A DNA stretch of 64,000 bases. Source: Vulcanimicrobiota bacterium. GTDB taxonomy: Bacteria; Vulcanimicrobiota; Vulcanimicrobiia; Vulcanimicrobiales; Vulcanimicrobiaceae. Numbering within the stretch: the first letter of the stretch is position 1; each line of letters opens with the position of its first letter. Shown piece after piece: positions 5,056 to 43,889 of this stretch. Below the pieces are notes generated by a model. That model ran no database searches. It was given only the letters and a program-made list of their open reading frames with translations, and was not told where the DNA came from. Where the stretch lies: NCBI GenBank assembly GCA_027459645.1, contig DAIDHQ010000040.1, forward strand, positions 62,001 through 126,000, given 5' to 3'. Made by a program: the position numbers and the translations under genes.

Positions 5056-5906
5056 TGTTTACCACGCTCGTCGACGCGGCTACGCTTCACGCGTGGCACG
5101 ATCGTCCCGGCTGGGTGACGATCGATTGCCGCTATTCGCTCGCCGACTTCGGCGCCGGGAGGCGGCTCTACGAGCAAGCGCATATCCCCGGCGCGTATTT
5201 TGCCGACCTCGAAAGCGAGCTATCGGGACCGAAGACCGGAACGAACGGACGCCATCCGTTGCCCGACCCCGAAGCGTTCGCCGCATACTTGCGAGCGATC
5301 GGGGTCGACGACGACACGCAAATCATCGCATATGACGCGGGCGGAGACATGTTTGCGGCACGCTTATGGCTCTTGTGCCGCTGGATCGGTCACGAGGCCG
5401 TTGCCGTACTCGACGGCGGCATCGAAGCGTGGAATGCCGGCGGGTATCCGCTGACCTCTGGGCTCAGCGCAGCTCGCTCGCTCGGCAATCTGCAGGTCCG
5501 CCTGCAGCCCGAACTCGTCGTCGACGCATCGTTCGTGCTAGCGCATCTCGACGATCCTAGCGTTCGCATCGTCGACGCGCGCGGAGCGGACCGCTTTGCC
5601 GGGGAAAACGAAACGATCGATCCGGTCGCCGGTCACATTCCCGGCGCGCACAACCATTGGTTCAAAGAGAACTTTGACGGGATGCAGTTCAAGTCGCCGC
5701 AAGCGTTACGGGAAGCGTTCGCGGTCTACGGACATCCCGACCGGCTCGTCCATCAATGTGGTTCCGGCGTCTCCGCGGCGGTGAACATGCTCGCTATGGA
5801 GATTGCGGAACTTCGCGGCTCGCGCATTTACGCCGGGTCGTGGAGCGAATGGATCAGCGACCCCGCGCGGCCTATCGCTGCCGGGAACACGCCGCCGCGG
5901 CCTTAA
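5055..5906 (+). CDS. sseA: sulfurtransferase, 3-mercaptopyruvate type (two rhodanese domains)
   Basis: 283 residues from GTG 5055, which shares its G with the TAG stop of the glutaredoxin gene. Two rhodanese domains: the first, inactive one has TIDCRYSLADFGAGRRLYEQAHIPGA, quoted here in parts (IDCRYSLAD, YEQAHIPGA); the second holds VDARGADRF and the active-site loop HQCGSGVSAA. The CGSGV loop is the mercaptopyruvate sulfurtransferase type (thiosulfate rhodaneses have CRKGV). Cytoplasmic; transfers sulfane sulfur to thiophilic acceptors. With BolA and Grx this suggests an Fe-S/sulfur-trafficking operon. The 3' end overlaps the convergent gene by 35 bases. Confidence 0.9.
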   Translation: MFTTLVDAATLHAWHDRPGWVTIDCRYSLADFGAGRRLYEQAHIPGAYFADLESELSGPKTGTNGRHPLPDPEAFAAYLRAIGVDDDTQIIAYDAGGDMFAARLWLLCRWIGHEAVAVLDGGIEAWNAGGYPLTSGLSAARSLGNLQVRLQPELVVDASFVLAHLDDPSVRIVDARGADRFAGENETIDPVAGHIPGAHNHWFKENFDGMQFKSPQALREAFAVYGHPDRLVHQCGSGVSAAVNMLAMEIAELRGSRIYAGSWSEWISDPARPIAAGNTPPRP

Positions 5907-6660
5907 TAACGGCGATCGAAAGCGGCCGTTCTTCGGCCTTCGCCGCGGCTTGATTCAGCGTCACCGCGTCATAGAGATCGAGGAACGGGCTGTCGGCGAG
6001 AAACCGATCGGATTTCGCCGTGGCATCTTCTTGCGCGGCGATCGATTCGAGCAGGCGCCGTTGGTTGAGGGAAGCAACGCTTCGGGTTCCGCCACTATGC
6101 TGCGCCGCGCTAAAGCTCTGCGCGGCGCCGAGGGCGGCGGCGTGCTGTGCGCTCAAGTCATCGAGAACGCTCTCGCTGCTAAGTGGATTGCCTGCTATCG
6201 TCATCCCGTTTTCGGTATCGCCGACCATGCCGCCGAGCGGATCGCGTGCCGAGGCCAAACTCTCCATCTCGTACGTTTGGCTCGTCCCGCCGAAGATGTT
6301 GAGATTTTTGGCCTGCGCGTCGCGTACCGCTTGGAGTTTTGCGCGAAGCCCTTTGCTCTGGACGCCCTGCAGCAACCGGTCGATCGTAGCGAGATTACTC
6401 ACGATTTGCGAAACGTCCATATCCAAGTTTTGCGTGTCGAGCTCCGCTTTCGCCGGCACGCCGCCAGGGCCCAGATCGTGGGCCATCCTGCGAACCACCG
6501 CTTTCCCGCGCGAGATCAACTTGTCGTTGGCGATCAGTCCGGCAATAGCCACGCCGGTCTTTCGGCGAAGTTCCGTGCATGCAGGCGACGAGCCGGTACG
6601 AACGATCGTCGGGGGCGTTGCAGCGGCCAGCAGGTATACGGCGAGAACGGGAACGAGCAT
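5872..6660 (-). CDS. two-cysteine TIV family secreted protein, member A
   Basis: 262 residues. Signal peptide MLVPVLAVYLLAAAT, then the family signature PPTIVRTGSSPACTELR (residues about 16-32), a long probably helical region (LIANDKLISRGKAVVRRMAHDL; DAQAKNLNIFGG) and the C-terminal block FLDLYDAVTLNQAAAKAEE. The mature chain has just two cysteines, one in SPAC near the N-terminus and one in AAACSRQR at the very end. Start ATG 6660 has a strong AGGAGG; that Shine-Dalgarno is half of a small palindrome (6666-6680) that could pair with itself. Last gene of the phosphodiesterase operon. Close paralogue of member B. Function unknown; exported. Confidence 0.82.
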   Translation of the reverse strand: MLVPVLAVYLLAAATPPTIVRTGSSPACTELRRKTGVAIAGLIANDKLISRGKAVVRRMAHDLGPGGVPAKAELDTQNLDMDVSQIVSNLATIDRLLQGVQSKGLRAKLQAVRDAQAKNLNIFGGTSQTYEMESLASARDPLGGMVGDTENGMTIAGNPLSSESVLDDLSAQHAAALGAAQSFSAAQHSGGTRSVASLNQRRLLESIAAQEDATAKSDRFLADSPFLDLYDAVTLNQAAAKAEERPLSIAVIKAAAACSRQR

Positions 6661-6724
6661 AGGCACCTCCTTCGAGGAGGCATAACGCCAAGCGCCGCCC
6701 TGCTGTGACGCGCCTTTTTTTACC

Positions 6725-7573
6725 CTATCGCGGCTGCGCGCACTGCGCCGCGGCATTCATGACGACGATCGCGAGCGGTTGTTCGTCGGCCTTAGTCGCG
6801 GCTTGGTTCAGCGTCACCGCGTCATAGAGGTCGAGGAACGGGCTCTCGGCGAGAAATTGATCGGACTTCGCCGTCGCATCTTCTTGGGCGGCGATCGATT
6901 CGAGCAGCCTGCGTTGCGCGAGCGATGCGGCGCTTGCGCTCGCCGCACCCTTTGCGCCGGTTTGTTGCGCCGTTTTAAAATTCTGCGCGGCGCCGAGCGC
7001 GTCGGCGTGCTGCGCGCTCAAGTCGTCGAGCAGATCGCCGCTCGAAAGCGCGCTGTTCGTGGAAGACATGCCGTTCTCGGTGTCGCCCACCATGCCGTTG
7101 AGCGGATCGCCGGTCGAGGCGAGGTTCTCCATGTCGTACGTCTGCGACATCGCACCAAAGATGTTGAGATTCTTCGCCTGCGCGTCGCGCACGGATTGCA
7201 GTTCGCTGCGTATGTATCCCGCCTTGACGCCCTTGAGCAATGAGTCGATGGTCGAGAGATTGCTCTGGATCTGAGACGCGTCCATGGTGAGTGCTTGATT
7301 GTCGAGCTGCATCCGCGGATTATAGGAACTCACCCGGGCCGCATGCGTCGAGTTGTACGACGACGACATGGTGCCGCCGCGCAGATCGTGTGCCATTTTA
7401 TCTACGGTGCTCTTCGCGTGGGCGATCAGCCTGTCGTTCGCGATCAATCCCGCGATTACGACGCCCGTCTTCTCGCGCAATTCCGTACAGAAAGGCGACG
7501 TGTTCGTGTGAACGATCGTCGGCGGCGCTTTGGCGGCAACGACGGTACTAAGGACCAGCGCGAGGAATGGCAT
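6725..7573 (-). CDS. two-cysteine TIV family secreted protein, member B
   Basis: 282 residues. Signal peptide MPFLALVLSTVVAAKA, signature PPTIVHTNTSPFCTELRE, central helices (LIANDRLIAHAKSTVDKM; LRDAQ-like block DAQAKNLNIFGAMSQ) and C-terminal FLDLYDAVTLNQAATKADE. The only two cysteines of the mature chain are in SPFC and in AAAQCAQPR at the end. Aligns with member A over most of its length, the main difference being an extra SSYNSTHAARVSSYN segment near residue 90 (member F has a similar SSYNSYGRAQV). ATG 7573 has AGGAGG upstream and lies inside the end of the preceding phosphodiesterase gene (26-base overlap), which implies co-translation. Function unknown. Confidence 0.82.
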   Translation of the reverse strand: MPFLALVLSTVVAAKAPPTIVHTNTSPFCTELREKTGVVIAGLIANDRLIAHAKSTVDKMAHDLRGGTMSSSYNSTHAARVSSYNPRMQLDNQALTMDASQIQSNLSTIDSLLKGVKAGYIRSELQSVRDAQAKNLNIFGAMSQTYDMENLASTGDPLNGMVGDTENGMSSTNSALSSGDLLDDLSAQHADALGAAQNFKTAQQTGAKGAASASAASLAQRRLLESIAAQEDATAKSDQFLAESPFLDLYDAVTLNQAATKADEQPLAIVVMNAAAQCAQPR

Positions 7574-8849
7574 TGCGCAACCTCCTGCGCCTCGATTGTA
7601 CCACGGCCAAGCCGATTGCCGCGCAAACGAGCAGCACGAGAACGGCAGCCGCAATAAGCGCCGCTATCGAGCGATTGCGCGTTCCGGCGCAGACCGAATA
7701 TGCCTTGCCGAACGCCACCTGCGCGCAGCGATACGTCTGCCAGCGGTGATCGGTTACGTCACCGAGGCGCCACGACCACACGTCGTAGGCCTGAATCCAG
7801 CGTGCGCGCAGCGCCGGGTCGGCGGCGATGCGCGTGCTCAAAGCAAGCAGCGATGCCGCATTCAACCGTTTGACGTCGAAGATTTCGTCGAACGTGGGAC
7901 TTTGTACCCATTCACCCGTGAAGCGCTGATGCACGAACGGTACCGAATCGACCAGCATGCCGCCTTCGACGACGAGTTCGTAAAACGCGGGATTGTTGCG
8001 GTAAACCGGAGAGAGCGACGAGGAGATCAGCATCGGCACCCCAGCGGGAACGCGAAAGTCGTACCGGTGCGTGTGCGCGCCGAGAACGAAGGCGACATTG
8101 GCGCGATCGCGTGCGAGGGTTGCCCGAAAGGCGCGATCGTTCGCAGCGGAAAGAAATGGTACTGCCAGCACCCGGTGCGCGATCGTCGTGCTCTCTGCGT
8201 CATACCCCGGCGGAATGTGCATCAGCAGAACGCTCGTTCCGATCTGTAATTCGCGCGCGAGCCACCGCTGCTCGGCGCCGCCGGGATCGGCCGCGCGCAC
8301 CTGGCACGAGCCGCGGTAGACGAACGACCACAGCACGCTATTAAGGACGACGGCTCGCATGCCGCCGGGCAAGCGTGCCGTATAATATCCGCCGTTTGCA
8401 AACGCGCGCTCGAACCCGGGCGCGGCGCCGTTGCGATCGACCAGCGGCGCGAAGATGCGCGCGATGTCCCGGGCGTACGGTCCGCCGACTTCGCTGTGAT
8501 AATCTCCGCACGGGTCGTCGTTGTTTCCGAGCGCGATCAGGAATTGTGCGTGCGGAAACGCGTCGTCGAGCTGACGGGCGATCCGCGCGATCGTCTCGAC
8601 CGCCGCTCGGTACGGCTCGCGTCGGTGCGCGCGCGCGAGTGAGGGAAAGTGATGCGCGAGAAAATCGCCCCCCAGCACGACCACGCGCGCGTCGGGCACG
8701 TCGCGGCGCATTTCGCGAAGCGCTTGCGAGAAGAGTGCCGGGTTAGTGTCGGCTCCGTACACGACCCGCGGACGGGAATCGAACGGGTTCATGTGGATGT
8801 CGTCGAGCACGAGCCAGTGCATCGCGACGGCTGCGACGAACGCGATCAT
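7548..8849 (-). CDS. acid-sphingomyelinase-like metallophosphoesterase, membrane-anchored
   Basis: 433 residues. An N-terminal signal-like segment leads directly into the metal motif LDDIHMNPF (D-x-H), then GGDFLAHHF, the GNND loop with DPCGDYH, MHIPPGYD and GAHTHRYDF, in the order and spacing of calcineurin-type phosphoesterases of the acid sphingomyelinase subgroup. A C-terminal transmembrane helix (ALIAAAVLVLLVCAAIGLAV) followed by basic residues suggests anchoring with the catalytic domain outside the cytoplasm. ATG 8849 overlaps the upstream stop as ATGA. Paralogue of the next upstream gene. Substrate not readable; phosphodiesters such as lipids or nucleotides are likely. Confidence 0.86.
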   Translation of the reverse strand: MIAFVAAVAMHWLVLDDIHMNPFDSRPRVVYGADTNPALFSQALREMRRDVPDARVVVLGGDFLAHHFPSLARAHRREPYRAAVETIARIARQLDDAFPHAQFLIALGNNDDPCGDYHSEVGGPYARDIARIFAPLVDRNGAAPGFERAFANGGYYTARLPGGMRAVVLNSVLWSFVYRGSCQVRAADPGGAEQRWLARELQIGTSVLLMHIPPGYDAESTTIAHRVLAVPFLSAANDRAFRATLARDRANVAFVLGAHTHRYDFRVPAGVPMLISSSLSPVYRNNPAFYELVVEGGMLVDSVPFVHQRFTGEWVQSPTFDEIFDVKRLNAASLLALSTRIAADPALRARWIQAYDVWSWRLGDVTDHRWQTYRCAQVAFGKAYSVCAGTRNRSIAALIAAAVLVLLVCAAIGLAVVQSRRRRLRNAIPRAGP

Positions 8850-10318
8850 GGCGTGGGCAACGGCGTCGGCTGCGGCACCCCGCCTTGCGGAGCGGGCGAC
8901 AAGACCGGAATCGGTGGCGGAGACGGATGCGGCGGAAGATCGTGCTGGATCTGCGGAGCGGCACATGCATCGTACTCCGTTACTGAAAGCGCCACGTCGG
9001 CGCACCAATAAGAGCGCCAGGTTGCGGGTTGCATCGACGCGTGCGCGCTGCTGCCGTCGTAATACTGCTCGTAGCGCATTCGCACGCGCCGATTATCGAA
9101 AATCGTTTGCTGCAACTGACTCAAGTGCGCCGCATCGATCGTTCCGTGTCCGTAGACGCTATCGAATGCGTACTCACGCCGCCACCGCGCCGGCCTCGCT
9201 CCATTTTTGGCAACCACGGGAAGATTCCCCAACACGAAATACTGCGCATCCGCAACGCTTGCATCGTCGCCGTTCACGTGCAACACCGTAAAGGTCGGAT
9301 TGTTTCCAAAGACGGGACTGAGCGAGGGTACGACGAGCATCGGCACCGCCGGGCGGCTCGGATCGAGTCCGAGCGTGCGAAATCCGTTCATGTGCGTGTG
9401 TCCGGAGATCGCCATCTGCACGCCGGGAGCCATCGCGTCGATCGCCGCTATCATTCCGTCGTTGAACGCAGGTTGCAGAAACAACACGCCCCCCGGCGGT
9501 TTTGCATGCATCGACGAATAGACGTCGATACCCGGCGGAATGTGCGCGAGTACCCACGTACGGCGCCCTTGCAACTCGCGCGCCGTCGTCTGCAGCCACG
9601 CCATCTCCGCAGCACCGGGATCGGCTTTGGGATCGCCGCATCTATTGTGGTACTCGCTCGACCACAGCACGTCGTTGAGGACGACCGCTTGGGCGCTGCC
9701 CGCCGGAAGCGGTGCCGTATAATATCCGCCCGTCGAAAAGGCCGCAACGAACGCCTTTGGATCCGGCATGCCCATCATCGCGCCCCACGACGCGGCGACG
9801 TTGGCGAGAAATGCGCTGCCGGGCTCCAATGCATAATCGCCGCAATAGCTGTCGTTGTTGCCGAGCGCGATAACGAACTGCGAACGCGGGAACGCCTGTC
9901 GAAATTCGATGGCGAGAAATCGGATCGTATCGTCGACGAAGATGCGGTAGTGCGCGTCGTCGTGCACGCGAACGTCAGCATCGAAATGTTTTCGAAAATC
10001 GTGCGCCAGAAAATCGCCGGCGATCATGACGACGCGCGGGGAGGCGACTTCGTTGCGCATCGCTTCCAGGGCGGATTCGAGCAGCGCAAAATTCGTATCG
10101 CTCCCATAGCCCGAAAACGGCTGGGGTTTGACCGAGGCATAGATCGTGCGCCACCGCTGCGCGGGAGCGGCCTCAAGCTTCTCCGCCAAGTGCGGGTCGG
10201 CCAACGGGTTGAAATGAATGTCGCTGACGACCAGCCACGCTTGAGTTTCGGCAGCCGCCACCGGCCGCGTCCAGCCGACGAGGAGCAAGCAGGCGATGAG
10301 GCAGAAGGCTGTGCGCAT
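8846..10318 (-). CDS. acid-sphingomyelinase-like metallophosphoesterase, secreted
   Basis: 490 residues with a clear signal peptide (MRTAFCLIACLLLVGWTRPVAAAE). Motifs in order: VSDIHFNPL, AGDFLAHDF, LGNNDSYCGDY, LAHIPPGID and SGHTHMNGF, giving the full metal-ligand set of the calcineurin-like superfamily; the long insertions match the acid sphingomyelinase type. In place of a membrane anchor it ends in a proline-rich tail (PPHPSPPPIPVLSP). First gene of an operon of two phosphodiesterases and two TIV proteins. Its ATG is the reverse complement of the CATG that also starts the divergent EVE gene, so no intergenic promoter exists. Confidence 0.87.
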   Translation of the reverse strand: MRTAFCLIACLLLVGWTRPVAAAETQAWLVVSDIHFNPLADPHLAEKLEAAPAQRWRTIYASVKPQPFSGYGSDTNFALLESALEAMRNEVASPRVVMIAGDFLAHDFRKHFDADVRVHDDAHYRIFVDDTIRFLAIEFRQAFPRSQFVIALGNNDSYCGDYALEPGSAFLANVAASWGAMMGMPDPKAFVAAFSTGGYYTAPLPAGSAQAVVLNDVLWSSEYHNRCGDPKADPGAAEMAWLQTTARELQGRRTWVLAHIPPGIDVYSSMHAKPPGGVLFLQPAFNDGMIAAIDAMAPGVQMAISGHTHMNGFRTLGLDPSRPAVPMLVVPSLSPVFGNNPTFTVLHVNGDDASVADAQYFVLGNLPVVAKNGARPARWRREYAFDSVYGHGTIDAAHLSQLQQTIFDNRRVRMRYEQYYDGSSAHASMQPATWRSYWCADVALSVTEYDACAAPQIQHDLPPHPSPPPIPVLSPAPQGGVPQPTPLPTP

Positions 10319-10835: not shown

Positions 10836-13800
10836 TTACGGATTGCTCTTGGCGGGGTTCGGACCGATGTTCTTGGTCAGAATGATGCGCCAGTTCGCCG
10901 GCCCGAGCACGCCTGCGGTCGTTGCCGCTTGCAGGGGTGCTACACCGGGATTGAGATAGCTCGGCAGTCCGGCGATCGGCACCGGAACGCCGTTTGCCAC
11001 GATCGGGAAGAGTCCCGAGTAGGCGTTGAAGATGTTGTCGCCTGCGATTTGCAGTGCGAGCGAACGGTTGAGCGGATACTTCAAGCTTGCATACGCAAGG
11101 CCGAACGGCGGTTCGTTCAACGAGTTGTTCTTCCCGTAGAGCGTATCACCGAAGAGCACCTGCGCGTTGTTCTTGAACGTGTAGCTCACTTCGAGGTTTC
11201 CTTGCAGATACGGAATGTTCTGGTTTGAAACGCCGCCGAAATAGCCGGTGTTCAGGAAACCTTGCCCAGGCTGACCGCCCGTGAAGTTGTTGCCCGGAAC
11301 GACGCCGAGCAACGTGTTGTTCGCGCATCCCGTCCCCGTCGGGTTATAGCCGTAGAAGCACGTCGGCAGATTGTATGCAAACGCGTGCTGCACGGAACCC
11401 GAGAGCGAGTAGCTGAAGCCAACCGGAACCTGATGCTTGATCGAGGCTTCGATGCCTTCGTAGCGCGAATTGTTGAGGTTCGTGTTCTCGAGGTAATAAA
11501 TCGGCGTGGCGGCCGTGGACGTGCCCGTACACGGGATCGGCGACGTGCCGCACGTCAGATTCGTCGGAACCGTGAAGCCGGTGATGAACTGGTTGAACAA
11601 GTTCGTCCGGTACACGTCGGCGGAGACCACGGTGATGCCGTCGTGCAGACGGTAATCGGCGCCGAGATCGAAGCCGAACGCGGTTTCAGGCACGATCGAC
11701 GAGTTGCTGAAGCGCTGCGTGGCGTACGTGCTGCCGTTGGCCACGTTGGGCGCCTGGGTGTAGTTTCCGAAGAGATTCACGTATGGCGGCGCGATCGCCG
11801 AACCGGCCGAGAGACGCACCGCGAGATCGGGTTTCGGCCGGTATTCGAGCGCGAAGCGTTGATCGAAGTGCGACGTGACGGCAGTGTTCCAGATCGGGGC
11901 GTTGGTCGGCGTGCCCGTGTAGTCGAAGGTACACGATTTACCCGCCGTACCGCACGCTTGCAGATACGTCGTTTGGTAGCGGTTTTCGTAGAGCGATACG
12001 ACGCCGCTTAGTTTCGGATTGATCTGGAAGCGCCCGCGCTCGAGCAGGGTCGAGAAGACCTGCGACGAGCCGTTGGGAACGCCGCCGCTGACGTAGGTCC
12101 CGCCGAAGCCGGTCTTGGAAGCGTTCAGGAAAACGCCCTGCGAATAGCTGACGGTCGACGAATGCGTTTGATCGTACGCGACGGAGATGTCGTTATCGCC
12201 GATCGGATGATCGTACTCGAACGAAACGCCGTTCAAGCTATCCATCTCCGGATTGTTGTACCAATCGTAGATGTTCACCGGCGTCGTCACGTTGTTAAAC
12301 GCGCCGAGCTTGGGATCGTAGCCGTTGAGCGTGAGATTATAGACGGTCGGATTGCTCGCGATGTCGCCGCCTTCACGCTTGAGGCGTTGGATGCCGGCGT
12401 GGTAGAAGCGCGCGAGGACCGTGTCGTTACCGATCGTCGAACGAACTTCGGCCTGCAGGATCGGTTCGTTGTTGATTTCACGGTTGTACACGGGGAAGAT
12501 GTTCGCCACCTGAACCTGCTGCCCGACGGCTAGCGCGCCGTTATACCCTGGGGCCGTGCTACAGGTACCGTTGGTGTTCGTCTTCGCGTTATAGCCGGTA
12601 TTCTTCGGGCAGAAGAGACCGGGCGAGAGCGAACCCGTGTTGGCGTTTTGATCGGAGAGCGTCTGGCTGCCCAGGTAGCTCACCGTCGCTACCGTCGCGC
12701 TCGAGAAGTTGTAGCGGAGTTTCACCAGCTCGTTGAGCCCGTTGAACGTTCCGCTCAAACCGAAGCAGCATGCGACGACGCCGAATTGATTGTAGTACTG
12801 CGACGCCGTGCCGGGCACGAGCCCGCTCGAGCTATTGTTGTAGCCGATGGTTCCGGTGACGCCGTTGTTGCTGAGCACCCAGTTCGATCCGGCTCCGGGA
12901 TTATACGAAGCTTGATAGTTGCTGATCGCGTTCGTCAAGTTCGAACCCGCAACGTCGACGACGAAGCCGAGCTTGCCGATCGTATCGGAGACGCCGAAGT
13001 TAAAGAACGAACCGCCGTGGTTGTCGAAGCCCATCGTATAGTCGGGCGTCAGCGTCGCGGTCGGATCTTTCGTACGGAAGTTCACCGTACCCCCGATCGC
13101 ATAGTTGACTTCCGGCGACATCGCGCCAGGTCCCTTGATGACGTCGACCCCCTGCAGCATGTACGGGCTGAGAAACGAGGTGACGTAGTCGCCGTACTGG
13201 CCGACCGAAACGGGGTGGCCGTCGATCAGCGACGCCGTTTCGAACGAAAGCGCGCCGCGGACGTTCGGGAACGTGATCGCGCCCGGAGAGGCGGCGTTCG
13301 CGCTCGATTGCGGCAAGCTGATCTGCACGCCGGGAATCTGATTGAGGACGCGCACGACCTGCGGTTGTCCCTGATCGGCAAAGACTTGTGCCGAAACATT
13401 GGTCGCGGCTGCGGTCGAGGTGTTGATCGCTCCGCGTCCGACCGTGCTGACCGAAGCGATCGTGCGCAGCGACGTGAGCGTCGCCGTGTGCATGTTGATC
13501 GCAAGGGTCGTCGCCGAACCCGCAACGATTGCGGTATCCGGCTGCTGCGCGGTGTCGTAACCCGCCTTACGGACGGTGACGAGATAGACGCCCGGGGCCA
13601 CGTCGTTCAGCGTAAAGTGCCCTTTTGCATCCGTCGAAGCGCTATAGGATTTGGGCCCGGTCATGGTGACCGTAGCCCCGACGACCGGCGCGCCGGTTTC
13701 GTCGGTTGCGGTACCACTAACGGTACCGCTCGTGGAAGCTTGGGCGAGGAGCGTGGCGGTGTTCGAGGCCGTTGCCGCACTGACGGGTCCAACGGAGAAC

Positions 13801-13853
13801 GCCGCGATCGCAATCGCGCCCAGCATTCGCGTGAGTAGACTCTTCAAAGTCAT
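10836..13853 (-). CDS. TonB-dependent receptor 2
   Basis: About 1005 residues. Signal peptide (MLGAIAIAAFSVGPVSAA within residues 10-27), carboxypeptidase-regulatory-like domain (VSGTATDETGAPVVGATV), the motif LRTIASV, plug domain (VVRVLNQIPGVQISLP, IDGHPVSVGQYGDY, GVDVIKGPG, IGGTVNFRTKDPT) and a large barrel. Paralogue of receptor 3, with near-identical plug segments. ATG 13853 touches GGAGG directly (zero spacing), so initiation two codons later at TTG 13847 is possible; the GGAGG is also part of a 5-base-pair palindrome. Probably its own transcript, insulated by the terminator upstream. Substrate unknown. Confidence 0.9.
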   Translation of the reverse strand: MTLKSLLTRMLGAIAIAAFSVGPVSAATASNTATLLAQASTSGTVSGTATDETGAPVVGATVTMTGPKSYSASTDAKGHFTLNDVAPGVYLVTVRKAGYDTAQQPDTAIVAGSATTLAINMHTATLTSLRTIASVSTVGRGAINTSTAAATNVSAQVFADQGQPQVVRVLNQIPGVQISLPQSSANAASPGAITFPNVRGALSFETASLIDGHPVSVGQYGDYVTSFLSPYMLQGVDVIKGPGAMSPEVNYAIGGTVNFRTKDPTATLTPDYTMGFDNHGGSFFNFGVSDTIGKLGFVVDVAGSNLTNAISNYQASYNPGAGSNWVLSNNGVTGTIGYNNSSSGLVPGTASQYYNQFGVVACCFGLSGTFNGLNELVKLRYNFSSATVATVSYLGSQTLSDQNANTGSLSPGLFCPKNTGYNAKTNTNGTCSTAPGYNGALAVGQQVQVANIFPVYNREINNEPILQAEVRSTIGNDTVLARFYHAGIQRLKREGGDIASNPTVYNLTLNGYDPKLGAFNNVTTPVNIYDWYNNPEMDSLNGVSFEYDHPIGDNDISVAYDQTHSSTVSYSQGVFLNASKTGFGGTYVSGGVPNGSSQVFSTLLERGRFQINPKLSGVVSLYENRYQTTYLQACGTAGKSCTFDYTGTPTNAPIWNTAVTSHFDQRFALEYRPKPDLAVRLSAGSAIAPPYVNLFGNYTQAPNVANGSTYATQRFSNSSIVPETAFGFDLGADYRLHDGITVVSADVYRTNLFNQFITGFTVPTNLTCGTSPIPCTGTSTAATPIYYLENTNLNNSRYEGIEASIKHQVPVGFSYSLSGSVQHAFAYNLPTCFYGYNPTGTGCANNTLLGVVPGNNFTGGQPGQGFLNTGYFGGVSNQNIPYLQGNLEVSYTFKNNAQVLFGDTLYGKNNSLNEPPFGLAYASLKYPLNRSLALQIAGDNIFNAYSGLFPIVANGVPVPIAGLPSYLNPGVAPLQAATTAGVLGPANWRIILTKNIGPNPAKSNP

Positions 13854-13973
13854 CCTCCAAGCTGGAGAAGCACAAATAAGTACGCTGTGGCCAAGAGCCG
13901 CAGCGACATTGACTAGTGTACGCTTTCGCAGATTAAGAGGCAATTAATCGGGCTTCGCGCCAGGAGTCGAGGC

Positions 13974-14011
13974 AAAAAAAGGCATCTCCTTTTTCCGGAG
14001 ATGCCTTTTTT
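13974..14011. terminator. bidirectional intrinsic terminator after TonB receptor 3
   Basis: Stem GGCATCTCC / GGAGATGCC (13981-13989 with 13997-14005), flanked by seven A on the left and six T on the right. On the minus strand it follows the stop codon of TonB receptor 3 by 18 bases and ends in a T-run: a textbook Rho-independent terminator separating two paralogous receptor genes. Confidence 0.92.
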
Positions 14012-14028
14012 CGCGCCGTGTTTTGCCT

Positions 14029-16854
14029 CTACGGCAGATTGTAGATGAGGGAGAACCGGTAGGTGGAGGGCCCCAGGACGTTCCCGGTCGTCGCCGCCTG
14101 TTGCCCGTTAGCGAGCGGAATCGGAACGCCGCCGCCATAGACCGGCAAGATTCCGGGCCACGCATTAAAGATGTTGTCGCCCGAGACCTGAAGTGCGAGA
14201 CCCTTGCGAAGCGGGTAGCGTAACGTCGCATAACCGATTCCGAAGGGCGGTTCGTTCAACGAATTGTTCGTCCCGTAATACGTCTCGCCGAAGAGAGCAT
14301 ACGCGCCGTTCTTGAACGCATACGACAGCTGCAGGTCACCTTGCGAGTACGGGATGCGCATGTTGCCGTTGTAGTTCAGACCGCCGATGCCGACGCCGAC
14401 GCCGTTGGTATTCTGACCCGAGATGATGTTGAGATTCTGATCGTACGTACATCCCGGCCCCGGCACGGAACAATAGAAGTACGGCGGCAGATCGTAATAG
14501 TAGCCCTTCTCGAGACCGAGCGACGCGCGGTAGCCGAAACCGAAGCGCGGTTGCCGCGAGACGACGAGCTCGATCCCTTCGAATCGCGCGTTACTGATGT
14601 TGGTATTGATCTGCTTGAGAACCGGATAGGGGCCCGTGATCGGGTTGAAGTTTTGATCCACGCAAGCGACTTGCAAGCAGGTCAAACCCGTCGGGTACGA
14701 TTGCGTGAAGAACCGGTTGAAGAGATTCGTCAAATAGACGTCGCCGGAGATAATGGTTCCGTCCTTCAGCCGATCGTCGGCACCCAAGTCATAGCCGAAC
14801 GCCGTTTCCGGCCGTATGGAACCGTTGCTCACCGACGTCAACGCCACGTTCGGATTGCTCGACGATATTTGCGGCGTGGTCGCCACCTGGTTGAGCAGTC
14901 CCATGAACGGCGGCGCGATCGCGCTTCCCATCGCGAAACGAATCGAACTGCTCGCCGAAGGGCGGTACGTCAGACCGAGGCGCGGATCGTTGTGCGCGTA
15001 GGTGCTCGTACCGAACGTCACGCCTTGGCCGAGAACGGCGGCCGAATACGTGTTGCAATTCCCGCCCGTGCATGCGGTCGGGAACGTGCTCGCGTAGGTG
15101 TTGAGGTAGTCGGTAAGCGTCGCTTCCAGTCGCGGCCCGCTGAAAAAGTGCCCGCGAAGCATGTACGTCGTCAGGGTTTGATTCGTGCCGGGAGGTAGAT
15201 TGAACGAATAGAACGGCCCGGCATAGGTCGAGTAGTCGATCGATTGAGCGTAGGTACGGTCGACGGAAAGCGAGACCGAATTCTCGCCCATTGGGTGCAC
15301 GTACTCGAAGGTAAGACCCGACAGCTTGTCCGTTTCCGGTTCGTTGTAATAGTCGGGATAGCTCAGGGTCGCCGGCGTCCCGTTAAAGACGACCAGGTTG
15401 TTGTTCGGATCGTAGTTCGAACCGTAGACCGTACCGGCCAGCGTATCGTTGGCAAGCGGATTGGTCCCCTGATATTGATAGCGCTGAATCGCTGCGTGGT
15501 AAAAACGTCCGAGAATCGAATCGTTCCCGAGCGTCGTGCTCACTTCGGCCTGGACGATCGGTTCGTTGTTGAACTCGAAGTTGTCGGCTCCGGGATAGAT
15601 GTTGGATACGAGCATCGGTCCCGGCTTGAGCGAGCCGGTGTACGAGGGATCGGGCGTAAAGGCGCTTCCGGCGATGAAGGCGCTCGTGTTGCCGTTCTGA
15701 TCGCTCCACGATTGACCGCCCAGGTAGCTCACGGTCGCGGTCGTAGCGCCGGAAAAGTGGTAACGCATCTTCACCAATTCCGCGACTTGGTTCAAAAAGC
15801 CGTGCAGCGTGTAGCAGCACACGACCAACGGAAACTGGTTATAGACGGAACTCGACGTCGGTCCCAACGTGGTCGGGCTCGAATTATCGGTGTAGCTCAC
15901 GCCGTTGATGGTATACGGCGTCGGATACGGAAGCTGATAGCCCGGGTCGTAATACACCTGGCGTCCGTCGAGGGAAGACGAAACGGATTGAGATGCAACG
16001 TCGACCACGAAACCGAGCTTTCCGAGCGTATCGGAAACGCCGAAGTTGCTGAAGGTTCCACCGTGGTTGTCGAAGCCGGCTAGAACTTGCGTGGAAATCT
16101 TCGCCGTCGGATCTTTCGTACGAAAATTCGTCGTGCCGCCGATCGCGTTGTTGACGACGGGCGAATCCGCGCCGGGGCCTTTTACGACTTCGACGCTGCC
16201 GAACATGAAGCTGTTCAAGAACGTCGTGACGTTGTCGCCGTACTGGCCGACCGAAATCGGATGCCCATCGATCAGCGAGGCGGTTTCGTATGACGTAGCA
16301 CCGCGAATGTTCGGGATCGTGATTGCGCCCGGAGCCGCAGCGTTGGCGGAATTCGACGGAAAGGAAATTTGGACGCCGGGGATCTGGCTCAGCACGCGCG
16401 TGACCTGCGGCGCCGTCTGGTTCAAGAACTCCTGAGAGTTCACGACATTGACCGATGCCTGCGAGGTGTTGATCGACGTCGCACCGCCGACGCGTACCGA
16501 GGCGATCGTTCGCAAGGACGTAAACGTTTGGACCTGCATCCTGACGGCGACGGTTTGCGTTTCGCCGGCGAAGACCGGAACGTTGTCCTGCGTTGCCGTT
16601 TGATAGCCCGGTTTGGTTACCGAAATCGCATACAGTGAAGGCGCAACGTTCTTGATCGAAAACGTGCCCTTCGCATCGGAGGACGTCGTGTATACGCTCG
16701 GCCCTCGAAGGGTGATCACCGCCCCCGAGACGGGCGCGCCGCTGGTGTCCGAAACGGTGCCGGAGATGCTTCCGGCCGTGGTCTGCGCCTGCGCGGAAAC
16801 GGGAACGAGGCACAAAACACATAGCAGAGCTGCGAGAGAGCTATAGATCTTCAC
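14029..16854 (-). CDS. TonB-dependent receptor 3
   Basis: About 941 residues from GTG 16854, which has GGAGG eight bases upstream; ATG 16875 lies before that site and is unlikely. Signal peptide VKIYSSLAALLCVLCLVPVSA, carboxypeptidase-regulatory domain (ISGTVSDTSGAPVSGAV), LRTIASV, plug (VLSQIPGVQISFP, IDGHPISVGQYGDNV, VEVVKGPGADSP, IGGTTNFRTKDPT) and barrel ending SLIYNLP with a terminal hydrophobic pattern usual for outer-membrane barrels. Tandem paralogue of receptor 2. It follows ppk1 on the same strand after 83 bases that contain an inverted repeat. Confidence 0.9.
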   Translation of the reverse strand: MKIYSSLAALLCVLCLVPVSAQAQTTAGSISGTVSDTSGAPVSGAVITLRGPSVYTTSSDAKGTFSIKNVAPSLYAISVTKPGYQTATQDNVPVFAGETQTVAVRMQVQTFTSLRTIASVRVGGATSINTSQASVNVVNSQEFLNQTAPQVTRVLSQIPGVQISFPSNSANAAAPGAITIPNIRGATSYETASLIDGHPISVGQYGDNVTTFLNSFMFGSVEVVKGPGADSPVVNNAIGGTTNFRTKDPTAKISTQVLAGFDNHGGTFSNFGVSDTLGKLGFVVDVASQSVSSSLDGRQVYYDPGYQLPYPTPYTINGVSYTDNSSPTTLGPTSSSVYNQFPLVVCCYTLHGFLNQVAELVKMRYHFSGATTATVSYLGGQSWSDQNGNTSAFIAGSAFTPDPSYTGSLKPGPMLVSNIYPGADNFEFNNEPIVQAEVSTTLGNDSILGRFYHAAIQRYQYQGTNPLANDTLAGTVYGSNYDPNNNLVVFNGTPATLSYPDYYNEPETDKLSGLTFEYVHPMGENSVSLSVDRTYAQSIDYSTYAGPFYSFNLPPGTNQTLTTYMLRGHFFSGPRLEATLTDYLNTYASTFPTACTGGNCNTYSAAVLGQGVTFGTSTYAHNDPRLGLTYRPSASSSIRFAMGSAIAPPFMGLLNQVATTPQISSSNPNVALTSVSNGSIRPETAFGYDLGADDRLKDGTIISGDVYLTNLFNRFFTQSYPTGLTCLQVACVDQNFNPITGPYPVLKQINTNISNARFEGIELVVSRQPRFGFGYRASLGLEKGYYYDLPPYFYCSVPGPGCTYDQNLNIISGQNTNGVGVGIGGLNYNGNMRIPYSQGDLQLSYAFKNGAYALFGETYYGTNNSLNEPPFGIGYATLRYPLRKGLALQVSGDNIFNAWPGILPVYGGGVPIPLANGQQAATTGNVLGPSTYRFSLIYNLP

Positions 16855-16876
16855 TCCTGGTACCTCCGTCACCATT

Positions 16877-35351: not shown

Positions 35352-36101
35352 ATGCTCGCAGCGCTCCTCGCTCTCGCCACTGCGGCGCCCTCCCCGTCCC
35401 CATCGGCGCAGCCGCTCCAGACCATCGTGACGGTTCGCACGTCGCCGTTTTGCGGCGCGTTCGCGACGCACGTAAATTCGGCGATTTCATCCGCGGTCAA
35501 CAACGACAAGAGCCTGGGCACCGTCATTTTCATGCTGCGCGCACGCGGCCTCTCGTCGTCCAGCATCGAGCGCAACAACGAAATTCTCCGGCTCGAAAAT
35601 GCGGCCGATTCCATGTATCGCGCGTATCGCGCGGGCGAACGTGAAGTCGATCACTTGCGCGATCTTGCAAAGACCGCGAAAGACAAGAGCGAGCAAGAAG
35701 ATATCAAATCGTCGGCGGATGCTCTCGGAGGCGTGCTCTATCGTCAGCATTTGATCCAGCGCGATCTGGACGGATTCGTCGCGTATCTGCAAGCCGGCGA
35801 CCTGCGGCGCGACAGCGACGCCGAAGCGACGCAAAACGAGGCCCTTTTCGGTGCGCCGGATGCGCATTATGCGGCCTCGCATCCCTCGCTGGTCGACGGT
35901 CACGACTACTGGCTGCCGACCGACGTCGGTGCAGGCATGCAGGCGAATAGCTCGCTGCCGCTTGCGGGCGAAGAGAGCCTGGGACAGGACCAATCCTACG
36001 CGCGCGCCGCCTCCCGGGATTTCGAGCGGCGCGTCCCCGGCATTCTCAAAGACGAGCTTAGGGCCGGCGCGCGAATCGCGCGGGCCAACGAACGCTGCTG
36101 A
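35352..36101 (+). CDS. two-cysteine TIV family secreted protein, member C (divergent)
   Basis: 249 residues. Signal MLAALLALATAAP, then the shortened signature QTIVTVRTSPFCGAF, a long helical region rich in charged residues (DKSEQEDIKSSADALGG) and a last-residue cysteine (RIARANERC). The mature chain has only these two cysteines, as in the other members, but the body is strongly diverged. It lies 72 bases upstream of ctaA. Exported; function unknown. Confidence 0.7.
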   Translation: MLAALLALATAAPSPSPSAQPLQTIVTVRTSPFCGAFATHVNSAISSAVNNDKSLGTVIFMLRARGLSSSSIERNNEILRLENAADSMYRAYRAGEREVDHLRDLAKTAKDKSEQEDIKSSADALGGVLYRQHLIQRDLDGFVAYLQAGDLRRDSDAEATQNEALFGAPDAHYAASHPSLVDGHDYWLPTDVGAGMQANSSLPLAGEESLGQDQSYARAASRDFERRVPGILKDELRAGARIARANERC

Positions 36102-36173: not shown

Positions 36174-37076
36174 GTGAATACTTTGCGACGCTTGTCGGCG
36201 GCTACGGTCGCCGTTTCGTTGGCGACCGTCATGCTGGGCAGTTGGACGCGAATCAACGGGGCTGGGATGACCTGCCCCGATTGGCCGCTATGCCATGGCA
36301 TGCTGGTGCCGTCATTTGCCGACGGCACGATCTGGGAGTGGACGCACCGGCTCTTTGCCTTTTGCGTGGCTCCGCTCGTCGTCGCCGTCATGATCGCCGC
36401 CTGGAGGGTACGCGAGCGTTCACCCTTCGTTTCCCCCATGCTGGGCGTCATAGGCGCCCTTTTCATCATCCAGGTGCTCTTGGGCGCCGCGACGGTCCAT
36501 CTGTCGAACAGCCCGATGTCCGTCGTACTCCACTGGGGAACGGCCATGGCCTTCGTCGCGTCGCTCGTGGCGATGACGCTGGTTGCCGGCGAACCGAGCC
36601 CTTCGGACGGGCATTCCTCGGAAGTGCTGCTGACGGGGATTCTTTCGGGAACCGCACTCATCGCTTTTGTCACGATGTGCGTCGGCGCATACGTCAGCTC
36701 GAGCGGCGCCGGCCTCGCCTGCCTTTCGATTCCCGAATGCGCGGGTAATGTCGTAGTCTACAGTCAAGGACAGTTCGTGCAGATGCTCCATCGCACGATC
36801 GCCGCCGGAACGCTGCTTCTTGCCGTCGCCTCGTGCGCGCTCGTGTGGCTGCGAGCCGCAAGCGTTCGGGTGCGCGTTACGACGACTGCCGGATTGTTAC
36901 TCGTCTTCGTTCAGGTATTACTAGGATTGCTCAACGTCGCACTGCGTTTGCCGATGGATCTGCGTGAAGCCCACGCGTTTAATGCGGCGCTCGTCTTTCT
37001 CGCCTTCGTGACCGCCGCGCTGTTTTCGGCGCTCGACGCGCGAACGGCATCGCCGCAGGCTGACGCGCTCCGGTGA
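36174..37076 (+). CDS. ctaA: heme A synthase
   Basis: 300 residues, eight membrane segments. Cysteine pair CPDWPLCHG in the first external loop and a second pair in SIPEC/LACL (GAGLACLSIPECAG), GSWTRINGAG, WEWTHRLFAF and MLHRTIAAG with the heme-ligand histidines. Oxidises heme O to heme A for the aa3-type oxidase encoded at 43924-47926. GTG 36174 start; its stop overlaps ctaB as GTGA. Confidence 0.92.
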   Translation: MNTLRRLSAATVAVSLATVMLGSWTRINGAGMTCPDWPLCHGMLVPSFADGTIWEWTHRLFAFCVAPLVVAVMIAAWRVRERSPFVSPMLGVIGALFIIQVLLGAATVHLSNSPMSVVLHWGTAMAFVASLVAMTLVAGEPSPSDGHSSEVLLTGILSGTALIAFVTMCVGAYVSSSGAGLACLSIPECAGNVVVYSQGQFVQMLHRTIAAGTLLLAVASCALVWLRAASVRVRVTTTAGLLLVFVQVLLGLLNVALRLPMDLREAHAFNAALVFLAFVTAALFSALDARTASPQADALR

Positions 37077-37936
37077 CCGCCGTCATCCGCGACTACTTCG
37101 AACTCGCGAAGCCGCGCATCATCGTGCTGCTGCTCATTACGACTGCGGCCGCGATGATCATGGCGGCGCGCGGCATTCCGCCGCTCGCGCTCACGTTTTG
37201 GACGCTGCTCGGCGGCGCGCTCGCAGCGGGTTCGGCCGGCGCGCTCAACTGCGTGTACGATTCCGATATCGACGCGCTGATGCGCCGCACCATGATGCGC
37301 CCGCTCCCGCAAGGCCGCATCGGCGTCCGCGCGGCGACCACGTACGCCGTTATTCTCGGCGTCGTGTCATTTGCGTTGCTGTTCTTTCTCGTCAACCCGC
37401 TCGCCGCATGGCTTTCACTCGCCGGTAACGTGTATTACGTCGTGATCTACACGATGTGGCTCAAGCGATTGACGCCGCTCAACATCGTGATCGGCGGCGC
37501 CGCCGGTTCGGTTCCACCGCTCGTCGGGTGGGCGGCGGTCACGCATCAGATCGGGGGCCCGGCGCTCGGACTCTTCGCGCTCATCTTCCTGTGGACGCCC
37601 CCGCATTTCTGGTCGCTTGCGTTGATGACCGAGACCGATTACGACAAAGCGAAGGTGCCGATGATGCCGAACGTCAGCGGCGTCGAACGGACGAAGCGCG
37701 AAATCATCTATTACACCGTCCTTCTCGTCGTTGCATCGGTACTGCTCTACCCGCTTCACATCATGGGGCCGATGTACACCGCCGCCGCCGTCGTTCTAGG
37801 CGGGATCTTTCTGTACGACACGCTTCGCACGTGGAAAGATCCCGGCAATACGTGGGCACGGCACACCTTCAAATTCTCTCTGCTGTACCTCGCACTGATG
37901 TGCGCGGTCATGGTTATAGACCGGATCATTGCCTGA
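37073..37936 (+). CDS. ctaB: protoheme IX farnesyltransferase (heme O synthase)
   Basis: 287 residues, multi-pass prenyltransferase of the UbiA superfamily. First Asp motif NCVYDSDIDALMRRT, the second PMMPNVSGVERTKREI region, and RPLPQGRIGV, WLKRLTPLNIVIGGAAG and FLWTPPHFWSLAL as in CtaB. Adds the farnesyl chain to heme B giving heme O, the substrate of CtaA. Starts by a GTGA overlap; the downstream MFS gene overlaps it by eight bases. Confidence 0.94.
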   Translation: MTAVIRDYFELAKPRIIVLLLITTAAAMIMAARGIPPLALTFWTLLGGALAAGSAGALNCVYDSDIDALMRRTMMRPLPQGRIGVRAATTYAVILGVVSFALLFFLVNPLAAWLSLAGNVYYVVIYTMWLKRLTPLNIVIGGAAGSVPPLVGWAAVTHQIGGPALGLFALIFLWTPPHFWSLALMTETDYDKAKVPMMPNVSGVERTKREIIYYTVLLVVASVLLYPLHIMGPMYTAAAVVLGGIFLYDTLRTWKDPGNTWARHTFKFSLLYLALMCAVMVIDRIIA

Positions 37937-41610: not shown

Positions 41611-42273
41611 ATGCTGCTTGCACTCTTGCTAGCCGTAGCGACGCCTCCAACGATCGTCACGACGAGCTCGTCTCCGCAATGCACGCTCCTGCGAGAAAAC
41701 ACGGCTCCGGTCATTTCGGCCATCGCGCAATCGCGCGAAATGTTTGCCCGCGACGACGCGACGCTTTTAAATGCCTCAATCGATCTCTTCAATCACGACG
41801 AAGGCCACGTCGCGCTCGACGTGATGAACTTGGAATCGTCTGCGACGAAGCTCGCGGCCAATATCGCGCTGATCGGCAACCTGCTCGGCGACAAGCGGTA
41901 CGCGACGCTCGACTACCGGTCGGGAACCCTTACGCGCCTCCGAGACGATCTGAAAGAGTCGCTCGTCATCCAAAAGCTGGCTCTTAACCGATTGACCGGA
42001 TTCACGGAGTCCTGGAGGGCGAGCCGCATCGATGACTGGGGACCGAAAGCCACCGGCATCGGGAATTTCACTCTTTCGGGAAGCGCGACGACGGCACCGA
42101 ACTTGATGGTCCCGGTGGGTTACCAATTTCCCAAAAATCGGATGCTGACGTACTTTGCATCCCAGACGCCCGCTTATGGGGCTGCAATCGATATCTCAAA
42201 CGTGCAGCTCGATGCGGTGCCCTTCGAACACCACGCCGCAAAGCTTTTCACGACCGCCTGGACCGGTTGCTAA
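41611..42273 (+). CDS. two-cysteine TIV family secreted protein, member D
   Basis: 220 residues. Signal MLLALLLAVA, signature TPPTIVTTSSSPQCTLLREN, helices (LFNHDEGHVALDVMNLE; LTRLRDDLKESLVIQK) and a C-terminal block (LMVPVGYQFPKNRMLTYFA, LFTTAWTGC). Only two cysteines in the mature chain: SPQC and the final residue. Closest relative is member E immediately downstream, sharing MVPxGYxxPxxxMLTYFA. Exported; function unknown. Confidence 0.8.
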   Translation: MLLALLLAVATPPTIVTTSSSPQCTLLRENTAPVISAIAQSREMFARDDATLLNASIDLFNHDEGHVALDVMNLESSATKLAANIALIGNLLGDKRYATLDYRSGTLTRLRDDLKESLVIQKLALNRLTGFTESWRASRIDDWGPKATGIGNFTLSGSATTAPNLMVPVGYQFPKNRMLTYFASQTPAYGAAIDISNVQLDAVPFEHHAAKLFTTAWTGC

Positions 42274-42275
42274 GG

Positions 42276-42985
42276 GTGCTGCTCGCGCTCTTGCTGGCCA
42301 TAGCAACGCCCCCGCCGACGATCGTTCATACGAATTCCTCGCCGCAGTGCGCGTTGCTCGAGCAGAATACGCACGCCGCAGTAACGGTCATCGGACAAAC
42401 CGCGAAATGCTGGCGGCGGACGATGCCAAACTCGTGAACGCGTCGATCGACGCGGTAAGCCACAACCCGGGCGCGATCGGCTTGGACCTTGCGAGCCTCG
42501 ACCGGTCGGCAATGCATATCGCACAAAACATTTCTTTGCTGGAATCATTGCTGGCCGACAGACGCTACAACACGCTCGACGACGGCACGCACAATTTGCC
42601 GCTCATCCGCGACAATCTACAGCAGTCGTTGGAAGCGCAGAAGATTGCGCTAAACGATATCACCGGCTTCGCCGAATCGCAGCATGCCACGCAGTTGATG
42701 AATGCCGGCCTCTCGCCGCAGCAGGTCGCCCAGTGGCAAACCGGCGATAAACCCACCACGACGACCCTTCATCCGCCCGATTTTGGCGACAGCTCGAGCG
42801 CGGGCAATGGCGAACTCATGGTTCCCAACGGGTACAAGCTGCCGACGGATAAGATGCTGACCTACTTCGCGCAGAAAACGCCGTGGTTCGACGTCGCGCT
42901 CAATATTTCGGGCGTGGAATTGCAGGCGTCTCTGCCCGAACGCGAGGCGGCGAATCTGATTCAAATCGCCTCGCAGGGCTGCTAG
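42276..42985 (+). pseudogene. two-cysteine TIV family member E, frameshifted
   Basis: Reading from GTG 42276 gives the family N-terminus VLLALLLAIATPPPTIVHTN and SSPQCALLEQNTHAAVTVIG, then the frame ends at TGA 42435. In the -1 frame, homology to member D resumes at once with REMLAADDAKLVNASIDAVS and continues to the terminal SQGC at 42985. Aligning with D shows that a single base is missing at about 42399-42400. So either this copy is broken or the assembly has a one-base error. Without correction the body would lack a signal peptide and first cysteine. It starts two bases after the stop of member D. Confidence 0.8.
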
Positions 42986-43076: not shown

Positions 43077-43889
43077 ATGCTCCATCTAGCGCTGGTTTTT
43101 GCACTCACCTCGTCCGAGCCCTCGGGGGCGGCACCGAAGACGATCGTCCACACCCGCTCGTCGCAGTTCTGCAGCGTGATGCGCGAGAGCGTGGGCCGCG
43201 TGGTTCAAGGACTGATCGTCAACGAGCGGTTGATCGACAAGGGCGACTCGGCGCTCGTCAAAATGGCGCACGACTATCTGAGCGGAACGCTCGCTTCGTC
43301 CTATAATTCCTATGGGCGGGCGCAGGTCGTTCCCGGTGCCAAGATCTCGTTCGACGATCAGCGTTTGCGCGACATCGCGGCGAGCATGGCCCACAACCTC
43401 GACGTCATCGACACGCTGCTCTCCGACCCGCGCTTGAGCCAAGGCACGAAAAGCGCGGACGATGCTACGCTCGCCAAGATGAAGGCGAAGCTCGAACGAG
43501 CGCGCGAGGGACAGGCCATTGCCGTGAACCTGATGAGCGGATTGGCGGAGACGCAAGAACTCGAAATGTTTACCGATCGCGGAAATGTGTCGATGAATCA
43601 AGCCGGCGGGAAGCATCTGCAATCGATGCTCTCGGGAGGTCTGCTCGGCACGGGCCCGCTCGACGCGACATCGGTGGCTCAAGCGTCGGTGAATCATAAG
43701 AAGCCAGAAGGAGCGATAAGCAGCGATCCGTTCGTCAACGACCCCGCACTTCGATATGCCGACGTCTTCGCGATGCAGAGCCCGATTCCCGACTTCTACG
43801 AGCAGTTACTCGTCGACCGCCGCGTAACGAAAGACGCCGAGGACGACGCCGCATCGGTCATCGTCCCCAGCGTCCAAGCGTGTAAGTAA
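43077..43889 (+). CDS. two-cysteine TIV family secreted protein, member F
   Basis: 270 residues. Signal MLHLALVFALTSS, signature PKTIVHTRSSQFCSVMRES, helices (LIVNERLIDKGDSALVKMAHDYL), SSYNSYGRAQVVPG (as in member B) and the C-terminal PDFYEQLLVDRRVTKDAED ending VPSVQACK. Only two cysteines in the mature chain (SQFC, QACK). GGAGG lies 12 bases before ATG 43077, somewhat distant. A small 7-base-pair hairpin is upstream (43017-43037). Convergent with the oxidase operon across a terminator. Function unknown. Confidence 0.82.
   Translation: MLHLALVFALTSSEPSGAAPKTIVHTRSSQFCSVMRESVGRVVQGLIVNERLIDKGDSALVKMAHDYLSGTLASSYNSYGRAQVVPGAKISFDDQRLRDIAASMAHNLDVIDTLLSDPRLSQGTKSADDATLAKMKAKLERAREGQAIAVNLMSGLAETQELEMFTDRGNVSMNQAGGKHLQSMLSGGLLGTGPLDATSVAQASVNHKKPEGAISSDPFVNDPALRYADVFAMQSPIPDFYEQLLVDRRVTKDAEDDAASVIVPSVQACK

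Follow-up and report, generated by a model that had tools for sequence, protein, structure and literature searches.

An exported protein family with a predicted four-helix fold, unnamed until now and present in most genomes of a single soil-bacterial class (Eremiobacterota)

In predicted fold, the described proteins closest to the family reported here are the ligand-binding domains of the chemoreceptors Tsr, Tar and PcaY (TarH or 4HB_MCP type). Judged from models, both groups are four-helix bundles with an up-down course and cores of comparable length. They also share a place on the outer side of the membrane, and the core gene of the family adjoins cheA-cheW. In contrast to the chemoreceptor domains, the family members have neither flanking transmembrane helices nor a signalling part, they carry two invariant cysteines at their ends (Cys1 and Cys2), and they give no sequence-profile match. 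A TarH-type domain is placed between two transmembrane helices, whereas these proteins end 0-31 residues (median 4) after Cys2. The periplasmic sensor domains of the histidine kinases TorS and Adeh_2942 are also helical bundles and match more weakly (Z 11.1 and 10.2), but they are parts of membrane kinases rather than free-standing proteins and lack a terminal cysteine pair. Four-helix bundles designed de novo reach a similar score, but they are artificial and unrelated. An engineered ClyA (PDB 4phq, CC6/264) has a disulfide clamping its first and last helices, the arrangement proposed below for this family, although it is engineered, belongs to another family and gives a fold match that is not significant (E 0.93).

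Six members in one window and two elsewhere in the genome

The window is the whole stretch of 64,000 nucleotides that was analysed (G000:C40:62001-126000), taken from a genome of 3.14 Mb in 47 contigs. It contains six copies of the gene: A and B in tandem, D, E and C in tandem, and F alone.

5872-6660 (-): member A, 262 aa with its Met at 6660, an exported two-cysteine protein, assigned from its translation, ribosome site and identity to B
6725-7573 (-): member B, 282 aa with Cys29 and Cys278, the tandem paralogue of A, modelled with AlphaFold
35352-36101 (+): member F, of subfamily 2, with Cys34 and Cys249 (last residue)
41611-42273 (+): member D, 220 aa with Cys24 and Cys220 (last residue)
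42276-42985 (+): member E, a gene broken by a frameshift near 42393-42405
43077-43889 (+): member C, 270 aa with Cys32 and Cys269, the closest relative of A and B in the tree

A and B are adjacent paralogues with 62% identity, each preceded by an AGGAGG-type ribosome site. Their divergence (dN 0.256, dS 0.786, dN/dS about 0.33) indicates that both are real genes under purifying selection. The sequence-only reading had described a PPTIVxTxxSPxCTELR motif in A and B directly after the signal peptide, with one other cysteine close to the C-terminus. In both, the motif was found to follow a hydrophobic N-terminus, and the sole other cysteine lies four residues before the C-terminus. The 'TIV' signature, after which the family had been named, is kept in part of the family, while other members have IYH, IGR or IGH; the constant part of the motif is I-x8-C. 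The remaining four copies had been grouped with A and B by their layout. It was revealed that C, D and F are true homologues: a profile built from A and B only matches C (E 2.5e-27), D (E 1.2e-10) and F (E 7.6e-3), and all three reach E <= 1e-71 with a seven-sequence profile that includes them. The A and B profile also finds both halves of E, which is the same kind of gene split by its frameshift, with both cysteine-bearing ends intact in two different frames. The frameshift may reflect a pseudogene or an assembly error. Whole-genome searches found two more members outside the window, one on contig C21 and one on contig C30, and all eight copies belong to one family.

How widely is the family distributed? 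I found matches in 103 of the 149 genomes searched in the phylum, with 1-11 matches per genome. All listed matches fall in the window's own class, a single class of Candidatus Eremiobacterota. Most genomes of the window's own family match, each of them 1-11 times, as do the four genomes from another family of that order and part of the genomes from a third family of the class, and none of the other-class genomes listed or rechecked matched. An all-species scan, which covered the core subfamily by pattern, gave 48 loci among 84,980 species, all titled Candidatus Eremiobacterota or Eremiobacteria except several named just 'bacterium'. A tree of 143 rows splits into two subfamilies. Subfamily 1 holds A-E with the core gene and its relatives, and subfamily 2 unites F and the gene on C21 with the members found in the second and third of these bacterial families. 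The two are joined by profile-profile comparison (98.9% probability over 230 columns). In tblastn searches, B had no match in plasmids and a core member had none in phages, and on these grounds phage or plasmid cargo was rejected. Two profile hits in TonB receptors (L117 and L124) proved to be false positives caused by the Pro-rich N-terminus.

The sequence-only reading had recognised no known family, and database searches agree: 38 members searched against Pfam, NCBIfam and PDB sequences gave no match to a described family, with single sub-threshold hits only. The proteins thus form a family that had no name, exported and with four helices in its predicted fold, and most genomes of this soil-bacterial class have it. 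A strictly conserved and often multicopy family is added to a phylum with very few cultures.

Conserved residues, predicted fold and the cysteine pair

Among the aligned full-length members, the Cys1 column and the Cys2 column are each conserved in 142 of 142, and only two other cysteines occur downstream of Cys1 in 31,009 residues. Thus, the pattern is not due to chance. Exactly two cysteines follow residue 22 in 138 of 148 non-redundant open frames. The other ten frames reflect start assignment (L049, L050, L066), an extra cysteine in the signal peptide (L176), halves of split genes (L095 twice, L160 twice, and E) or an added pair (L203). The added pair of L203, from genome G115, has the form CDPYDC and is perhaps a second disulfide. 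No complete homologue lacking either cysteine was found among the 142 aligned members and the 148 open frames checked, with profiles that were built from cysteine-bearing members and would still detect close members missing one. In B numbering, Gln132 is conserved in 141 of 142 members, Glu264 in 93% (otherwise Gln) and Asp47 in 91% (otherwise mostly Asn), and Ile20 in 96% of the alignment. The family alignment has no conserved His or Met.

An N-terminal hydrophobic segment is present in 127 of 142 members, some starts being uncertain, and 140 of 142 have no second membrane-like segment. Lipidation at Cys1 was considered and rejected because the residues that precede it (SPFC, RPLC, SAYC) make no lipobox. 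In the subclade L064-L071, the signal peptide contains an additional LSAC, at which lipidation could occur.

AlphaFold models of two members were made with 54 aligned sequences. The mean pLDDT is 80.8 for the core member L048 and 75.2 for B of the window, and the helix cores reach 95-98. The L048 model has helices at 41-80 (kinked), 103-130, 142-192 and 239-273, with the conserved cysteines at 43 and 272. The B model has helices at 27-70, 86-113, 119-153 and 245-279, with low-confidence helices at 179-205 and 216-234. In both models, Cys1 opens helix 1 and Cys2 closes the last helix. Since the helix number is even and the bundle runs up and down, helix 1 is predicted to start at the same end of the bundle at which the last helix finishes. 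In L048, the angle from the hydrophobic moment is 36 degrees for Cys43, 36 for Asp61, 13 for Gln162, 20 for Glu258 and 20 for Cys272, and the Asp lies five whole turns from Cys1. In the modelled helices, therefore, both cysteines and the Asp, Gln and Glu residues face the hydrophobic core in helical phase. The disulfide proposed earlier between the two ends of the chain is in keeping with these models, in both of which topology puts the cysteines at the same end of the bundle, facing the core. From topology, helical phase and conservation, Cys1 and Cys2 are very probably bonded to each other.

It was also expected that a DsbA-like oxidase would make this bond. That expectation held only in part; DsbB is absent and the single DSBA-model hit is of FrnE type, but a VKOR-like gene is present. 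No DsbB was found in the class, and no periplasmic oxidase of the DsbA type was found either. Within the genome, the DSBA model has a single hit, a protein that begins with MSSPLRVDVWTDIVCPWCY and has no signal peptide and is thus FrnE-like and cytoplasmic. VKOR normally carries a second cysteine pair in a loop. The VKOR-like gene, located 2.4 kb upstream of the window (L243:7200-7595, +), keeps the CPHC motif and has no loop cysteines. VKOR-like genes occur in 80 of 147 genomes, almost always within the family-bearing class, but the correspondence is not one to one. How, then, does the class oxidise its exported proteins, with no DsbB and, in this genome, a VKOR-like protein lacking the loop cysteines? 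Vulcanimicrobium alpinus WC8-2, a relative in culture, has a wall of the Gram-negative type that includes an outer membrane (PMC9758169), which makes an oxidising periplasm plausible.

In structure searches, Foldseek against the PDB gave nothing significant for either model (best E 0.27). The top VIA-align rows for both models are the Tsr, Tar and PcaY ligand-binding domains, matched end to end. B aligns with Tsr at Z 14.5 and 3.0 A over 153 of 155 residues (model 21-282 on Tsr 31-185), and the core model aligns with its top chemoreceptor domain at Z 11.7 and 2.8 A over 138 residues. VIA-align itself warns that, among helical bundles, a Z as high as about 13 may be generic. Designed four-helix bundles reach Z 13.4, so that about 1 Z separates them from the chemoreceptor domains; together with the lack of a significant Foldseek match, this suggests that the similarity to the chemoreceptor fold may be generic. 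Homology to 4HB_MCP_1 was tried and rejected. None of the 38 members matched this Pfam family at E 0.1, and hhalign against 17 4HB_MCP_1 domains from the same phylum gave probabilities of 0.1-0.3%. Thus, the proteins resemble such a domain in their models, while there is no profile signal for membership.

Gene neighbourhoods and possible roles

In many genomes, including the window's own, the core gene lies just downstream of cheA-cheW in the same direction. On C30, flagellar flhB/flhA-type genes and a PilZ-type gene precede cheA-cheW, and imuA-imuB come after the core gene. At L245:12294-16016 the core gene lies between cheW-type and imuA-imuB-type (mutasome) genes, and this order recurs in other Eremiobacterota genomes; the names flhB, flhA, cheA, cheW, imuA, imuB and dnaE2 rest on inspection of the sequences rather than on a family search. 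In other genomes, the core gene follows BlaI, M56/BlaR1-type and prolyl-oligopeptidase-type genes, and in another subclade it follows a CarboxypepD_reg/Plug TonB-type receptor. Upstream of one core member, a BlaR1-type M56 peptidase is fused to pentapeptide repeats (L060:1-1620, +). Member F is located just upstream of ctaA (36174-37076) and ctaB (37073-37936), a position kept in several genera. Many family-bearing genomes have no chemoreceptor (MCP) at all. Since the family is kept in these genomes, chemotaxis is at best a local role, and a chemotaxis protein proper was rejected as the general one.

The reading I prefer, to which I would give about an even chance, is that the family consists of soluble, disulfide-clamped four-helix bundles with an Asp/Gln/Glu trio, serving as detached sensor or ligand-binding domains of the envelope. 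The signal peptide and a short Pro/Ser-rich stretch would lead into helix 1, whose first turn bears Cys1, and the last helix would end with Cys2. The up-down-up-down course would bring the two cysteines together at one end, and their disulfide would clamp helix 1 to the last helix, a task that falls to the two membrane-spanning helices in the similarly folded chemoreceptor domains. The core-facing polar residues on helices 1, 3 and 4 (Asp47, Gln132 and Glu264 of B) are the most likely functional site. The protein would be periplasmic or extracellular, an accessory domain of the envelope that stands by itself and binds a ligand or serves as a sensor, and the paralogues may have become specialised by locus. 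Ligand sensing is the leading candidate for its role. That a disulfide may replace the membrane in a bundle of the sensor type is a testable structural idea, for which the two Cys, the Asp, the Gln and the Glu are offered as residues to test. A bolder version, in which chemoreceptor-type sensors with a disulfide in place of the membrane are secreted throughout the class and inform CheA/CheW, BlaR1-type regulators and TonB receptors, would make them a new kind of soluble envelope receptor, but it seems doubtful.

The same stapled bundle might instead be a structural or chaperone-like envelope protein that shields or holds partners such as TonB receptors, oxidase assembly or secreted proteins, its trio being a buried polar network that fixes the helix register. 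No operon partner is common to the groups, whose neighbours are cheW, BlaR1-type genes, a TonB receptor, ctaA or rpoD, and F stays beside ctaA-ctaB across genera, as such a role would allow; yet a near-invariant Gln with the Asp and Glu, in a fast-evolving family, probably exceeds the usual needs of a fold, and I regard this role as possible but rather unlikely. The Cys1-Cys2 bond is itself a prediction, and F adjoins haem A synthase genes, so that the cysteines might instead join separate molecules through disulfides into covalent dimers or polymers, or might bind metal or haem. Against this stand the helix parity and core-facing phase that put both cysteines at one end, the lack of a conserved His or Met in the alignment, and a strict cysteine economy typical of one intramolecular pair, all of which make such an arrangement improbable.

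It may also be asked whether the bundle descends, in diverged and soluble form, from the ligand-binding domain of a chemoreceptor, as a true homologue rather than an analogue. The end-to-end fold match and the link of the core gene to cheA-cheW favour descent, but the fold is generic, profile-profile comparison gives no signal and the cheA-cheW linkage is not seen for subfamily 2; common ancestry thus appears unlikely. Least probable by far is a helical protein that forms pores or resembles a secreted effector, with a distant likeness to the ClyA/NheB group. One of the 38 scanned members matches NheB (E 0.024), and ClyA-like structures occur among the weak fold matches. The NheB match is, however, single, weak and below the cut-off, the ClyA fold matches are not significant, nearly all members have no second hydrophobic segment, and the core gene has long been kept in one conserved neighbourhood.

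Two further gene pairs were seen near A and B. Next to B, 7548-10318 (-) encodes two overlapping adjacent paralogues of the calcineurin-like metallophosphoesterase type. Beyond them, two large genes lie side by side at 10836-16875 (-) and cluster with each other; the first of the two (10836-13943) encodes a CarboxypepD_reg/Plug TonB-type protein.
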